DNA from: Flavisolibacter nicotianae
GTDB taxonomy: Bacteria; Bacteroidota; Bacteroidia; Chitinophagales; Chitinophagaceae
Assembly (NCBI RefSeq): GCF_003628535.1
Contig: NZ_RBCI01000003.1
Location: 496,001-560,000, forward strand
Direction: 5' to 3'
DNA length: 64,000 nt
Shown: one piece after another, positions 8,878 to 44,843 of the stretch
Layout of the letters: each line of letters starts with the position of its first letter
Position numbering within the stretch: the first letter of the stretch is position 1
The notes under the pieces: model-generated
The model's input: the letters and a program-made list of their open reading frames with translations, nothing else
Told to the model about the DNA's origin: nothing
The model's database searches: none
Translations under genes and position numbers: made by a program

Positions 8878-10194
8878 TTACCGGTGCAGCTGCAGCGAAC
8901 CTTCAAGCAACAGCACTTTCAGTGCTTCGTCATCGGGTTTCATCCGGATGCTTTTTTTCGGTTGATCCAGCAAAACGGCAATGCTTTCCGGTACAGGGAT
9001 CGTTTGTCCCGTCACCGGTTCAATCACGTCGTAAAATTTTACCGGATGCGCCGTTTCCAGGAAGTAACCTTTTGCACCATCATGCGACGACAGGTAACGC
9101 TGCAGCGCAATAAAACCAACCGCACCATGCGGATCCAAAAGGTAGTGGTATTTTTCCTGCACGTCTTTGATCACCGTTTTCGTTTCATCGTCGGAAATGC
9201 TATAGGCCGTCAGGATATTTTTCAGGGAAGGCAACTGGTTCCCGAACAGCTCCATGATGCGAACAAAATTGCTTGGGTTGCCAACGTCCATGGCATTGGA
9301 AAGCGTCGACACCGATGCCTTCGCAGTATATGTACCGCTTTCCAGGAATTGCAGCACCGTATCGTTGGCGTTGCAGGCGGCGACAAAATGCTGTGCCGGC
9401 AACCCGGAACAATAGGCCAGCAGACCGGCGCAGATGTTGCCGAAGTTTCCGCTGGGTACGCTGATCACGGGTGGATTGCCTTTGTCCTTCCATTGCTGGT
9501 AAGCGAAAAAATAATAGAGTTGCTGCGGCAGCCACCGCGCTACGTTGATCGAGTTAGCTGAGGTGAGAAAGAGGCTTTTTTTCAGTTCTTCATCCATGAA
9601 GGCATTCTTCACCATTTGCTGGCAGTCGTCGAAGGTGCCATCTACTTCGATGGCGGTGATGTTCTTTCCCAATGTTGTCAGCTGGACTTCCTGTGTCCGG
9701 CTAACCTTGCCGGATGGGTAAAGAATGACTACGTTGACGCCTTCCACACCATAAAAACCGTTGGCCACGGCGCCACCCGTGTCGCCGGACGTTGCAACCA
9801 GTACGGTCACTTCTTTGTCCCTGTTCTTTACAAAATGCCCCAGGCAGCGACTCATGAACCGGGCTCCCACATCTTTGAAGGCGAGGGTCGGACCATGAAA
9901 CAGTTCAAGCGTGGAGATAGCGGGAGTAACCGGTACGAGCGGAAATGGAAAGTTGATGGTTTCTGAAACGATCGTTTGCAGATCCGTGTCGCTGATGCTG
10001 TCGCCGACATAGGGCTTCATGACGGTAAAGGCAAGTTCCTCCTTGGACAGCGTGTCGATCGAATCGAGAAAGCCGCTGGGCAGTTGCGGAATCGTTTCGG
10101 GAAAATAAAGGCCCTTGTCCGGTGCCTGTCCCTGGATGGCAGCCTCGCTGAAACTGGCCCGCAGGGACTTATTGTTGGTGCTATAGTACTTCAT
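8878..10194 (-). CDS. thrC: Threonine synthase
   Basis: PLP enzyme converting O-phosphohomoserine to threonine. 438 residues, typical for the ThrC type with an N-terminal YYSTN region (MKYYSTNNKSLRASF). The PLP lysine is K107 in GPTLAFKDVGARF, and the phosphate loop appears as SGDTGGAVANG around 163. Its start overlaps the end of thrB by 14 bp, which suggests translational coupling. Last gene of the thrABC operon. Confidence 0.97.
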   Translation of the reverse strand: MKYYSTNNKSLRASFSEAAIQGQAPDKGLYFPETIPQLPSGFLDSIDTLSKEELAFTVMKPYVGDSISDTDLQTIVSETINFPFPLVPVTPAISTLELFHGPTLAFKDVGARFMSRCLGHFVKNRDKEVTVLVATSGDTGGAVANGFYGVEGVNVVILYPSGKVSRTQEVQLTTLGKNITAIEVDGTFDDCQQMVKNAFMDEELKKSLFLTSANSINVARWLPQQLYYFFAYQQWKDKGNPPVISVPSGNFGNICAGLLAYCSGLPAQHFVAACNANDTVLQFLESGTYTAKASVSTLSNAMDVGNPSNFVRIMELFGNQLPSLKNILTAYSISDDETKTVIKDVQEKYHYLLDPHGAVGFIALQRYLSSHDGAKGYFLETAHPVKFYDVIEPVTGQTIPVPESIAVLLDQPKKSIRMKPDDEALKVLLLEGSLQLHR

Positions 10195-11122
10195 GTTGAT
10201 GTTGATTGATAAGAGAACAGCCTTGCTGGTTAAGGGTGGTGACGTAGGTGTAATAATCCAGTCCTAACTGGTCGTAGGTTTCCTTCATGATTCCTTCGAC
10301 AGTCCGTGCCGTTTTTTCGTCTTTGCTGAGCATAAAAAGCGAGGGACCGGAACCGGAAATGCCACCGCCCAGTGCGCCGGCTTCCTTGCACTGCGTTTTG
10401 ACGCGGTCGAATCCCGGTATCAGGATGCTGCGCACCGGCTCGATGATGATGTCTTCGAGGGAACGTCCAATGAGGTCGTAGTCTTCTTTTAAAAAGCCGG
10501 TAACGAGGCCTGCAATGTTGCCCCATTGCCGGATGGCATCTTTCAGCAACACTTCCTTGCGGAGGATCTGCCTGGCATCGGAGGTCTTTACTTCAATTTG
10601 CGGATGTACAACCGTTACAAACAGCGGGGGCGAAGAAATGGAAACGATGTCCAGGGGAAAGATGCAGCGGATCAGCGTAATGCCGCCATAGATGCCCGGC
10701 GCCACGTTATCGGCATGTTTAACACCGGATGCTACCTTTTCGCCAAACATGGCAAACTGCACCATTTCCTCTTTGCTGAAGCGATTGCCAAGGAGGTGAT
10801 TGGCTGCCACCACAACGCCGCTGGCACTTGCCGCACTGGAGCCGAGCCCACTTCCCGGTTTGATGTTTTTTTTGATGCGCACATCAAAGCCGATTTCTTC
10901 GTCTGTCGCTTTTAGGATTTCCAATAGCGGCGCACCGGCCGTGTTCAGCGCCGGGTCTTTGGGAAGCGGGTAGCCGTCCGTGCTTTCAATAACAACTTTT
11001 CGTTCACTGAGCAGCCGGATTTCCATTTCGTCGTACGGTTCGTGCAGGCACATGCCCAGCACATCAAAACCACAGACAAGATTGGCAACGGTAGCGGGTG
11101 ATTTAATTTTGACTGATTTCAT
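10181..11122 (-). CDS. thrB: Homoserine kinase
   Basis: GHMP-family kinase making O-phosphohomoserine from homoserine and ATP. 313 residues, normal length. The GHMP ATP loop is PGSGLGSSAASASG (about 89-102). N-terminal MKSVKIKSPATVANLVCGFD and a C-terminal GGGISGSGPSLFML glycine motif are typical. Only 3 bp separate it from thrA and it overlaps thrC by 14 bp, so the three genes form one tight operon. Confidence 0.97.
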   Translation of the reverse strand: MKSVKIKSPATVANLVCGFDVLGMCLHEPYDEMEIRLLSERKVVIESTDGYPLPKDPALNTAGAPLLEILKATDEEIGFDVRIKKNIKPGSGLGSSAASASGVVVAANHLLGNRFSKEEMVQFAMFGEKVASGVKHADNVAPGIYGGITLIRCIFPLDIVSISSPPLFVTVVHPQIEVKTSDARQILRKEVLLKDAIRQWGNIAGLVTGFLKEDYDLIGRSLEDIIIEPVRSILIPGFDRVKTQCKEAGALGGGISGSGPSLFMLSKDEKTARTVEGIMKETYDQLGLDYYTYVTTLNQQGCSLINQHQHEVL

Positions 11123-11125
11123 GGG

Positions 11126-13564
11126 TTAAGCTCTTAACGTTCTGATGATATCGGCAAACACACCCGATGCCGTGACTTCCGCACCGGCGCCGGCTCCTTT
11201 TACCACCATCGGCTGATCGGTGTAGCGGTTGGTGTAAAAGGTTACGATGTTGTCTTTGCCATACAGGTGATAAAAATCGTGGGCCGGGTCGATGTGCTTC
11301 AGGCCAACGGCCGCTTTGCCGTTTTCATAGGTGGCAACAAATTTCAACTTCTTGCCGGCCGCGGCAGCTTCTGCATACAGGGCCTTGAAGTGCGCTTCCT
11401 GCCGCTCCATTTCTGCATAAAAATCTTCCACGCTTCCCTGCATGCAGCTCTCAGGCATGAAGGTTTGATTGGTGATCGCTTCCATCTCCAGCGGTTCGCC
11501 GGCTTCACGGGCCAGGATCATGATCTTGCGCATCACGTCTTTGCCACTCAGGTCCAGCCGCGGATCGGGTTCCGTATAGCCTTCGGCCTGTGCCTGGCGC
11601 ACCACCTCGGCAAAGCTTCTTTCGCCGTTGTAATTGTTGAACACAAAGTTCAGCGTGCCGCTCAGCACCGCTTCGATTTTCGTGATGCGGTCGCCGCTGC
11701 GCAGCAGGTCGTTCAGCGTGCCGATGATGGGCAGGCTGGCGCCCACGTTGGTCTCGAACAGGAAGGATACGTTGTGATCCCTTGCCGATTCTTTGAGCTG
11801 TCTGTAATAGTTGTACGAAGAGGAGCAGGCAATTTTGTTGCAGGCTACGATGGCAATACTTTTTTCGAACACCTTGTCATAGGACATGGCCACCGACTCG
11901 TTTGCCGTGATGTCAACAAAAACGGAATTGCGCAGGTTTTTCTGCTGCATGATCTCGATAAAACGCTGCAGGTCGGACGGCTCGCCTTCGGCCAGCTTGT
12001 CTTTCCATTGCTGCAAATTGATTCCGTCATCGTTAAAGGCCATCGTGCGGCTGTTGGCCAGGCCAACGACGCGAACCTGCAGCAAAAGGTTTTTTTGCAG
12101 GTACGCCTGTTGCTGTGCAATCTGTGCCAGCAGGCGGCTTCCCACGTTCCCGGTGCCGGCAATGAAAAGGTTGACCTGCTTATATGTGGTTTCAAAAAAT
12201 TCCTCGTGCAAAACGTTCAGCGCTTTCTTGATATCGACGGTGGCCACCACGGCAGAAATGTTCCGCTCTGAAGAACCCTGCGCAATCGCCCTGACATTGA
12301 CGCCGTTCCGGCCCAGTGTGCTGAACATGCGGCCGCTGATGCCGGGATGGCTTTTCATTTTATCGCCCACAAGGGCAACGATCGACAGGTCTTTCTCCAC
12401 CACCAGCGGGTTGACCTTTTCCCGTTCGATTTCAAAACTGAAGGCCTGGTCGATGACGGCTTTTGCCCGCCCGGCGAGGTGATCGTCCACACCCACGCAA
12501 ATCGAATGTTCGGACGATGCCTGCGTGATCAGGATAACATTGATATTATTCGCCGCAAGGGCTTCGAACAAACGTTTTGAGAAGCCGGGTATGCCCACCA
12601 TGCCGCTGCCTTCCAGCGAAAGCAGGGCCAGTTTTGCCATGCTGGAAATACCGGTGATGATCTCGCCATCGCGGTGCGTGGCGTGGATCAGCGTGCCTTC
12701 ATCATCGGGGTGGAATGTGTTCTTGATCCACACGGGAATGTTTTCCTTCATCAGGGGTTGGATGGTTGGAGGGTAGACCACCTTGGCGCCAAAATGCGAA
12801 AGTTCCATCGCCTCGTGGTATGAGATGCGGTTAATAGCTTTTGCATTCGCAACCATGCGGGGATCGGCAGTCATCATGCCCGATACATCGGTCCAGATCT
12901 CCACCACGCCGGCTCCCAGTGCCGCACCGGCAATGGCTGCCGTATAGTCCGAACCGCCCCGGCCCAGGGTTGTGGTATTGCCTTTGTCGTCCGACGCAAT
13001 AAAGCCGGGAAGCACAAAAAGGTTCGCCGTTGCATTGGAAAAATGGTCTCGGAACGCTTTTTCCGTGGTTTCAAAATCAACCGCCGCTTTGGTGAAATCG
13101 GAATTGGTCCGGATCAGTTTTCGCGAATCCACCCATTGACTGTTCAGACCTTCGGTATTGAAGTAGGCCGAGATGATCTGGGACGAGATCAACTCGCCGT
13201 AACTGAGAATGCGGTCTTTTGTCCGTTCGGTAAAATCCTGCAGCAGGAAGATGCCGTTGCAGATGTCTTCCACTTCGTTGAACTGCTGCATCACGAAACT
13301 CAATACGCTGCTTTGGTTATTCAGCGGGAGCAGGTCTTTGACGGCGGTGAGGTGGCGCTCGGTAATTTTTTGAAGCGTGGTTTTGTAACAGCTTTCGCCG
13401 CGGGAGGCCAGCAAGCCGCATTCCAGCATCTGGTCGGTAACCCCGCCCAGTGCCGACACAACGACGACGGTTTTGCCGGCTCTTTTGGATAGAACAATGT
13501 CTTTTATTTTTTTAATGTTGGCGGCATTGGCAACGGACGTGCCGCCAAATTTTAGAACCTGCAT
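11126..13564 (-). CDS. thrA: Bifunctional aspartokinase / homoserine dehydrogenase
   Basis: Catalyses the first and third steps from aspartate to threonine. 812 residues, matching the fused ThrA of E. coli (820). Order: aspartokinase with VLKFGGTSVANA at the N-terminus, paired ACT regulatory domains (about 310-460), homoserine dehydrogenase with NAD(P) motif IAGTGNVGSRLLAQ (about 468) and catalytic region to the end. The ACT domains imply feedback inhibition by threonine (family knowledge). A Thr/Ile-rich leader peptide and hairpin lie 90-180 bp upstream. Confidence 0.97.
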   Translation of the reverse strand: MQVLKFGGTSVANAANIKKIKDIVLSKRAGKTVVVVSALGGVTDQMLECGLLASRGESCYKTTLQKITERHLTAVKDLLPLNNQSSVLSFVMQQFNEVEDICNGIFLLQDFTERTKDRILSYGELISSQIISAYFNTEGLNSQWVDSRKLIRTNSDFTKAAVDFETTEKAFRDHFSNATANLFVLPGFIASDDKGNTTTLGRGGSDYTAAIAGAALGAGVVEIWTDVSGMMTADPRMVANAKAINRISYHEAMELSHFGAKVVYPPTIQPLMKENIPVWIKNTFHPDDEGTLIHATHRDGEIITGISSMAKLALLSLEGSGMVGIPGFSKRLFEALAANNINVILITQASSEHSICVGVDDHLAGRAKAVIDQAFSFEIEREKVNPLVVEKDLSIVALVGDKMKSHPGISGRMFSTLGRNGVNVRAIAQGSSERNISAVVATVDIKKALNVLHEEFFETTYKQVNLFIAGTGNVGSRLLAQIAQQQAYLQKNLLLQVRVVGLANSRTMAFNDDGINLQQWKDKLAEGEPSDLQRFIEIMQQKNLRNSVFVDITANESVAMSYDKVFEKSIAIVACNKIACSSSYNYYRQLKESARDHNVSFLFETNVGASLPIIGTLNDLLRSGDRITKIEAVLSGTLNFVFNNYNGERSFAEVVRQAQAEGYTEPDPRLDLSGKDVMRKIMILAREAGEPLEMEAITNQTFMPESCMQGSVEDFYAEMERQEAHFKALYAEAAAAGKKLKFVATYENGKAAVGLKHIDPAHDFYHLYGKDNIVTFYTNRYTDQPMVVKGAGAGAEVTASGVFADIIRTLRA

Positions 13565-13652
13565 GGTAAGAACAAATTTTAGATGGGTGAAATGAAATAG
13601 AACTGTTGTCGTTGGTGGTAGCGTGAACGCCCAGGTGGCAATATGGTCTTAT

Positions 13653-13673
13653 CAATCCGCTGTTAGCGGATTG
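13653..13673 (-). promoter_or_regulatory. Leader hairpin upstream of thrA
   Basis: Perfect 9-bp stem CAATCCGCT / AGCGGATTG with a 3-base loop. The stop codon of the Thr/Ile leader peptide (13663-13665) lies inside it, so a ribosome finishing the leader would cover and melt the stem. No U-run follows, so it is not a simple terminator. It could act as a pause or as part of alternative folding with the downstream leader (inference). Confidence 0.55.
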
Positions 13674-13707
13674 TGGTAATCGTATTCGTCGTGGACTGTG
13701 TGGCCAC
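13663..13707 (-). CDS. thrL: Candidate threonine leader peptide (GTG start)
   Basis: Fourteen codons plus stop: starts GTG, then A-T-Q-S-T-T-N-T-I-T-T-I-R. Six of 13 residues after the start are Thr and two are Ile, the amino acids sensed by thr leader peptides in enterobacteria (established for E. coli thrL). An in-frame GTG at 13741-13743 would give a 26-residue form; an in-frame TAG lies just before that. No ATG occurs between thrA and the promoter. The stop codon is inside the hairpin 13653-13673. The composition and position are strong; the non-ATG start and missing U-tract leave doubt. Confidence 0.55.
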   Translation of the reverse strand: MATQSTTNTITTIR

Positions 13708-13760
13708 TGCGGAAACGTTTGTATGGAGTGAAGACTGTATCACGGAATTCTATAGGAGCA

Positions 13761-13791
13761 CAAAATAAGGGAAGAAGTCAAATAAACAAAA
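13761..13791 (-). promoter_or_regulatory. Candidate thrABC promoter
   Basis: On the minus strand: TTTTG, 19 bases, TTATTTTG (one mismatch to TAnnTTTG). The transcript would begin about 10 bases before the first possible GTG of the leader peptide. Confidence 0.5.
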
Positions 13792-44732: not shown

Positions 44733-44780
44733 ATGAATAAAACTGTACATACTCATCATCATGCGTTGCCGGCCCGGTAA
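44733..44780 (+). CDS. hisL: Histidine operon leader peptide
   Basis: Fifteen residues: MNKTVHTHHHALPAR. Four of 15 are His, three of them consecutive. It is followed by mutually exclusive RNA hairpins ending in a U-run just before hisG. This is the classical his attenuation layout. The ATG is only 8 bases after the -7 box, so the peptide seems to be translated from a leaderless mRNA. Confidence 0.9.
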   Translation: MNKTVHTHHHALPAR

Positions 44781-44843
44781 GCTGTGATGTTTTATGTCAT
44801 AAATAAACCAAAGGCTTACCACGCGGTAGGCCTTTTAATTTTT
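44776..44843 (+). promoter_or_regulatory. His operon transcription attenuator
   Basis: Terminator: AAGGCTTACC (44811-44820) pairs with GGTAGGCCTT (44825-44834), one G-U pair, then TTAATTTTT. Antiterminator: GGTAAGC (44776-44782, overlapping the leader stop codon) can pair with GCTTACC (44814-44820), which uses up the left arm of the terminator. Ribosome stalling at the His codons would leave GGTAAGC free and allow read-through. Confidence 0.85.

Follow-up and report, generated by a model that had tools for sequence, protein, structure and literature searches.

A conserved threonine leader of unusual anatomy upstream of thrABC in Chitinophagaceae

The minus strand upstream of the thrABC operon in the window (the whole stretch of DNA that was analysed, 64,000 nucleotides) carries what is, judged by comparison of sequences, a conserved threonine leader of unusual anatomy. 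It is likely that this leader acts as a translated leader-peptide attenuator, which senses charged tRNA-Thr (and probably tRNA-Ile too) and controls thrABC. Its notable parts are a stop codon within a hairpin, a conserved motif and the absence of a U-run; the non-ATG start is ordinary.

Locus and promoter

The genes of the operon and the parts of the leader are located as follows.

8878..10194, minus strand: thrC, threonine synthase (TIGR00260, 279 bits, cut-off 167)
10181..11122, minus strand: thrB, homoserine kinase (NF002288 and TIGR00191, both above cut-off)
11126..13564, minus strand: thrA, bifunctional aspartate kinase/homoserine dehydrogenase I (NF006959, 1039 bits, cut-off 726)
13565..13619, minus strand: C-rich, G-poor spacer 5' of thrA (from base composition)
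13620..13631, minus strand: tentative hairpin P3, GGCG-TTCA-CGCT (from the best-stem score against shuffles)
13630..13645, minus strand: conserved motif CATATTGCCACCTGGG, family consensus CATATYRYC(n3-4)GGG (from the alignment of relatives)
13653..13673, minus strand: hairpin P2, nine perfect base pairs, CAATCCGCT-AAC-AGCGGATTG, overlapping the last leader codons (from direct reading, folding and covariation)
13663..13743, minus strand: leader ORF, GTG 13743-13741, 26 codons VIQSSLHTNVSAVATQSTTNTITTIR and TAA 13665-13663 (from direct reading and codon bias in 99 relatives)
13761..13790, minus strand: probable promoter, TTTG 13790-13787, 19 nt, TATTTTG 13767-13761 (from direct reading and the Bacteroidota consensus)

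The TTTG/TATTTTG pair is taken by us to match the Bacteroidota promoter consensus with its -7 box, and transcription would start at about 13755. Of the 99 relatives described below, 57 have a TAnnTTnG box 4-20 nt 5' of the earliest possible in-frame start (ATG, GTG or TTG). The box of the window is one base (the last) off this eight-letter pattern, and the window was therefore not counted among the 57 promoter-anchored sequences. The conserved motif at 13645-13630 falls outside the span 13653-13791 to which the preliminary description of this DNA was confined. Among the 80 loci listed, the closest named relative is Flavisolibacter longurius BT320 with a thrA 85% identical to that of the window, and one further genome has a thrA with 86% identity.

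Conservation in Chitinophagaceae

From 139 loci, 120 with a usable thrA start and upstream sequence were retained, which gave 106 distinct upstream regions. The same layout of hairpin and motif was present in 99 of these 106 Chitinophagaceae regions, which were picked by a rule on letters, CATA and GGG among them. With another rule, in which GGG played no part, the element was identified in 98 of 105 regions vs 15 of 105 reversed sequences. Left out of the 99 were L012 and L014, which have the hairpin and the leader with a variant motif, L123, where the element lies farther upstream, and L136, which is cut off; the element is absent from three of the 106 regions (L008, L070 and L082). Since the leader is conserved in relatives, it is not a product of chance. 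The preliminary description had proposed to look for conservation of the Thr and Ile codons and of the stop within the hairpin, and both are indeed kept in the relatives.

Leader peptide and start codon

A Thr/Ile-rich leader peptide on the minus strand upstream of thrABC had been proposed before, and both the letters and the frame-specific codons of the 99 relatives bear this out. From 13707 to 13663 the minus strand reads GTG GCC ACA CAG TCC ACG ACG AAT ACG ATT ACC ACA ATC CGC TAA, with six Thr and two Ile codons after GTG 13707 by direct reading. Thr accounts for 543 of the 1271 in-frame codons 5' of the hairpin in the 99 relatives (42.7%) and Ile for 252 of 1271 (19.8%). Together, they make up 63% of the pre-hairpin codons in frame vs 2-3% in the other frames, in which Thr was counted in 9/1252 and 10/1188 codons (0.7-0.8%) and Ile in 15 and 25 (1.2-2.1%). 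The part of the ORF 5' of the Thr run folds better than the shuffle mean in 88 of the 99 relatives.

The start had been placed at GTG 13707. GTG as the codon used is likely to be right, but 13707 is an internal in-frame codon of an ORF starting at 13743, and as read from the letters the latter is the more likely start. The resulting 26-amino-acid version, with seven Thr and three Ile, is favoured because the frame is open up to GTG 13743, which sits 17 nt 3' of the Bacteroidota-like -7 box. The absence of ATG from the leader was found as described (none on the minus strand between 13755 and 13565). That a non-ATG start would be unusual did not hold: the first in-frame start codon of the 57 promoter-anchored relatives is GTG in 30, ATG in 21 and TTG in 6. 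GTG, the commonest of the three, is therefore nothing out of the ordinary in these leaders.

In 71 of 99 relatives (23 of 99 in the reversed control), for example in L034 and L128, a second CATAY was additionally observed 37-90 nt 5' of the hairpin. Of 80 such occurrences, 66 lie in the frame of the leader ORF, where they encode His-Ile.

Hairpin P2 and its stop codon

The leader stop TAA 13665-13663 overlaps the loop of P2, which agrees with the earlier description of a stop codon in a perfect 9-bp hairpin, and 88 of 99 relatives likewise have their stop at this loop. It is located in the 3' arm in four relatives, in the gap between hairpin and CATAT in four and past CATAT in three, so that 11 of 99 have the stop off the loop, three of these beyond CATAT. 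TAA is the leader stop in 88 of the 99. The leader RNA of the window has a folding energy of -35.5 kcal/mol (z = -2.38), and 2 of 200 shuffles were as good. In 29 relatives chosen from the 99, 98.5% of the cells of P2 pair and three of seven pairs vary on both sides. Four measures of P2 covariation were matched by 0, 1, 0 and 0 of 500 shuffles, but 153 of 500 matched a fifth one, which concerns further pair types.

The anticodon-like loop of a ThrRS-type operator is expected to show GU. Mimicry of a ThrRS operator was considered and is unlikely, as no more than 52 of 99 relatives have GU there.

The CATAT motif and the sequence up to thrA

When the 99 relatives were aligned on CATAT, ATA was the same in all of them and the G at +13 and at +14 in nearly all, a conservation of CATA and GGG that is partly by construction because these letters helped to select the 99 regions. 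Of the 88 relatives whose stop overlaps the loop, 58 have the C of CATAT 17 nt away from the T with which the stop begins. The gap between the P2 stem and CATAT measures 6-8 nt in 76 of 99, and the end of CATAT therefore lies 11-13 nt from the P2 stem. Hairpin-dependent RNA polymerase pauses have a similar spacing from stem to pause, and by analogy this placement may give a hint, but only a hint, of such a pause. Three further approaches to the motif were abandoned: a pattern search with the CATAT motif only was too degenerate for use, pairing with 16S rRNA was dropped since the variable letters would break complementarity, and a second coding segment was dropped since the length varies by single bases.

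The sequence 3' of the motif often reads GGC...GCT, which corresponds to P3. Its best-stem score was 3.42 vs 2.66 in shuffles and its mean fold -3.7 vs -2.7, lower in 67 of 99 relatives; 22 of 99 relatives scored above 90% of the shuffles made from them, compared to 10 of 98 for a control region. For the family of the window, support for P3 appears modest to weak. Longer stems 3' of the motif occur in several regions of the numbered families f4, f5 and f24, for some of them with the anchoring elsewhere.

The last 60 nt before thrA have a median (C+1)/(G+1) of 1.67 in the 99 thr leaders, compared to 1.07 for 236 control regions that lie upstream of other ORFs at these loci (1.13 before removal of 55 thrA upstreams). 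A Rho-loading region at 13565-13619 would be speculative, and the C/G bias does not appear specific.

Alternative helices were assessed in 57 of the 99 sequences by comparing duplex energies of matched regions with those of permuted partners, and the P2 arms, used as positive control, passed. With kinship ignored, the start region paired with the Thr/Ile codons at -7.72 vs -6.35 for permuted partners (0 of 200 as good), the Thr/Ile codons with P3 were equalled by none of 200 permutations, the start region with CATAT was weak but beat 199 of 200, and P1 with CATAT beat 196 of 200. Among the CATAT region, P3, P1 and the tail, no competing partner of the P2 3' arm was found in the 57 sequences.

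Missing terminator and the his and trp attenuators of the same genus

No U-run follows the hairpin, as the preliminary description had pointed out when it argued against copying the mechanism from E. coli. There is no terminator-like site in the thr leader of the window, and a U-run terminator was found in 0 of 12 thr leaders of the same genus (12 of 14 upstream regions; L008, without the element, and L017 were left out). Other leaders of the genus do have one: a GC hairpin with a U-run follows the his leader in 15 of 15 and the trp leader in 15 of 15 readable loci (one more his locus, L305, was unreadable and left out). The trp leaders (...WWWHTN...) come from the trpE upstream regions L335-L349. 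The window itself contains a his example.

44733-44843, plus strand: classical his-operon attenuator before hisG (ATG 44848), leader MNKTVHTHHHALPAR

The stop of this his leader, TAA 44778-44780, lies within GGTAAGC, and the terminator stem 44810-44835 is followed by TAATTTTT. Because his and trp have terminators in the same genus, the lack of one is a property of the thr leader and not of the organisms, a contrast that the preliminary description did not draw. In another pathway, a probable classical ilv attenuator was noticed by eye upstream of ilvD (L319, genome G016), with an Ile/Val-rich leader and then GGCGGTTTTTTTT.

Distribution in Bacteroidota

A covariance model of hairpin and motif (R1, 52 positions) was built on alignment A2, which holds 29 equal-layout sequences of the 99, because alignment A1 (47 sequences) was poorly registered around GGGC. 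At E <= 0.1, R1 finds a match in 69 of the 117 genomes of the family and none in the other 48. At E <= 0.004 there are 66 family matches, 65 of them at thrA. Directly 5' of a listed thrA lie 61 of the 66 (G029 by extrapolation from a partial match); among the other five, L182, L350 and L351 lie before thrA and L352 lies beside an internal thrA piece. Three of the six weaker matches were inspected, of which those in G068 and G077 precede thrA and L211 has no thrA nearby. R1 is not exhaustive, since thrA is present in at least 7 of the 20 unmatched family genomes that were listed (G022, G023, G030, G041, G044, G046 and G054).

At the last of these five loci (L353, G069:C13:6900-8300), the element precedes a divergent aspartate kinase of 31% identity and not the usual thrA start.

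In a sample of the phylum, R1 matches 16 of 395 genomes at E <= 0.05. Five of the matched genomes are outside the family, all with the element 5' of thrA; four belong to f24, which is in another class, and one to f5. A survey of 85 thrA upstream regions of the phylum (two more were without a recognisable start, and L242 with only 5 nt was unusable) identified the element by rule in 1 of 1 region of f4, 9 of 13 of f5, 4 of 15 of f24, 1 of 4 of f8 and 2 of 6 of f1, and in none of the 44 regions from 18 other families. By eye, L230 and L236 (f24) and L213 and L297 (f1, motif altered) are element-like. In f3, all 5 of the 5 thrA leaders (L245, L247, L250, L252 and L256) combine Thr/Ile codons with a terminator of the classical U-run type instead. 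Judged from these leaders, the related family f3 runs the same operon with another attenuator type.

Proposed mechanism and alternatives

We infer the regulatory role of the codons, the direction of regulation and the output step as follows. The leader ORF would start just past the promoter and be translated from GTG. Because it is established attenuator biology that Thr codons in a leader sense charged tRNA-Thr, those found here would do the same: when charged tRNA-Thr is scarce, the ribosome would stall at Thr codons before or within the 5' arm of P2 and block P2, and transcription would run on into thrA. With threonine in good supply, the ribosome would reach the stop at the P2 loop and depart, P2 would form, and P2 together with the CATATYRYC...GGG motif would bring about premature arrest or termination without a U-run. 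For the output step, composition and spacing make Rho-type termination a possible candidate and RNA polymerase pausing at CATAT a slightly less likely one; the rest of the likelihood falls to other outputs. The preliminary description had named pausing and Rho as candidates too, along with translation coupling. It is possible, without being probable, that this is a phylum-level attenuator that dispenses with both a U-run terminator and an antiterminator, in which the ribosome would be the sole switch on a stop-in-loop hairpin and CATATYRYC...GGG, at its near-fixed distance in front of the terminating ribosome, would relay the state to RNA polymerase, by hairpin-dependent pausing, or to Rho. 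Such an attenuator would exist side by side with the classical his and trp ones of the genus.

An ordinary intrinsic attenuator, in which P2 would terminate and the A/T-rich, ACATTTC-like sequence behind it would serve as a poor but working U-run, could explain the conserved P2 stem. A loose family-wide rule for T counts (5 T in 8 nt after the stem) was also met by 24 of 99 thr leaders, mostly at P2, and some relatives may have a weak terminator. However, 73 of 99 have 3 or 4 T within 9 nt past P2, the count of 0 of 12 in the window's genus stands against clear his and trp terminators in 15 of 15 each, and the conserved motif would be left unexplained, which makes this reading improbable. Slightly less probable still is an RNA that binds a protein or a metabolite, with CATATYRYC...GGG and the hairpins as the site and the leader ORF as secondary. 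Near-invariant letters outside the P2 stem and a near-fixed spacing would fit such a site, but not the strong frame-specific Thr/Ile codons and the conserved position of the stop.

Translational control, by which the leader or P2 would govern initiation at thrA through coupling or by hiding the start region, is very unlikely. Two points would suit this idea: an ORF, the leader, precedes thrA, and initiation in Bacteroidota needs no Shine-Dalgarno sequence (also PMC9723704). The distance from CATAT to the thrA ATG is, however, far and variable (50-129 nt, median 84, in the 99 relatives). For the thrA-proximal tail, permuted partners equalled the real ones in 95 of 200 cases against the CATAT region, in 131 of 200 against the P2 3' arm and in 68 of 200 against P3, and the pairing test thus lends no support to a leader that hides the thrA start.

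Relation to known leaders

The thr leader attenuator of E. coli (Rfam Thr_leader, RF00506) encodes a Thr/Ile-rich peptide before thrABC. Both leaders have a short peptide of this kind in front of the operon and a hairpin past the regulatory codons. The leader described here differs in lacking a U-run terminator, in its stop at the hairpin loop, its GTG start, its CATATYRYC...GGG motif and in the lack of an Rfam match: at the gathering score there were 0 matches in the window, including Thr_leader, and in six relatives at E <= 1 there were only mir-B6 and sroH, unrelated and away from the leader. With the his and trp attenuators of its own genus it shares a peptide rich in the end-product amino acid 5' of a biosynthesis operon, and it is set apart from them by the GC hairpin and U-run that they have. 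In the tna operon of E. coli, free tryptophan is sensed via the nascent peptide TnaC without a P2-type hairpin at the stop, in which it differs from the thr leader. The two would be alike in that the ribosome at the leader stop decides on downstream Rho termination (TnaC and Rho are named in the accessible part of PMC1262725). Leader peptides of cys operons and the LEU element in Actinobacteria are reported there to be without obvious terminators, with Rho proposed for cys. These are likewise regulatory codons with parts of an attenuator missing, but they belong to another phylum and to other amino acids, and a stop-in-loop hairpin with a motif is not described in that part of the text.

The titles and abstract beginnings of the open-licence literature matches listed do not describe the element. 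Lopatovskaya et al. 2010, cited in PMC4833913, may already have predicted thr attenuation in Bacteroidota. Another candidate cis-regulatory RNA of Bacteroidetes is the Bacteroid-trp RNA motif RF01692 (PMC2864571, in part). Unlike the thr leader, it was matched in 0 of 18 genomes of the window's genus, while the control genome Bacteroides ihuae was matched. For F. psychrophilum, of the same phylum, attenuation by leader peptides was reported to be strongly indicated in front of amino acid operons (PMC9723704). Its main text mentions neither thrA nor threonine, and the passages concerned give no account of the leader architecture. Short ORFs reminiscent of leader peptides were described for B. 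thetaiotaomicron (PMC7366714, in part).

Biological meaning

The thr leader is a compact RNA with a conserved yet unexplained readout in an under-studied phylum, for which the his and trp attenuators of the same genus serve as an internal control. It would add an RNA family without a match in Rfam release 15, and it bears on how Bacteroidota could stop transcription early without a U-run.
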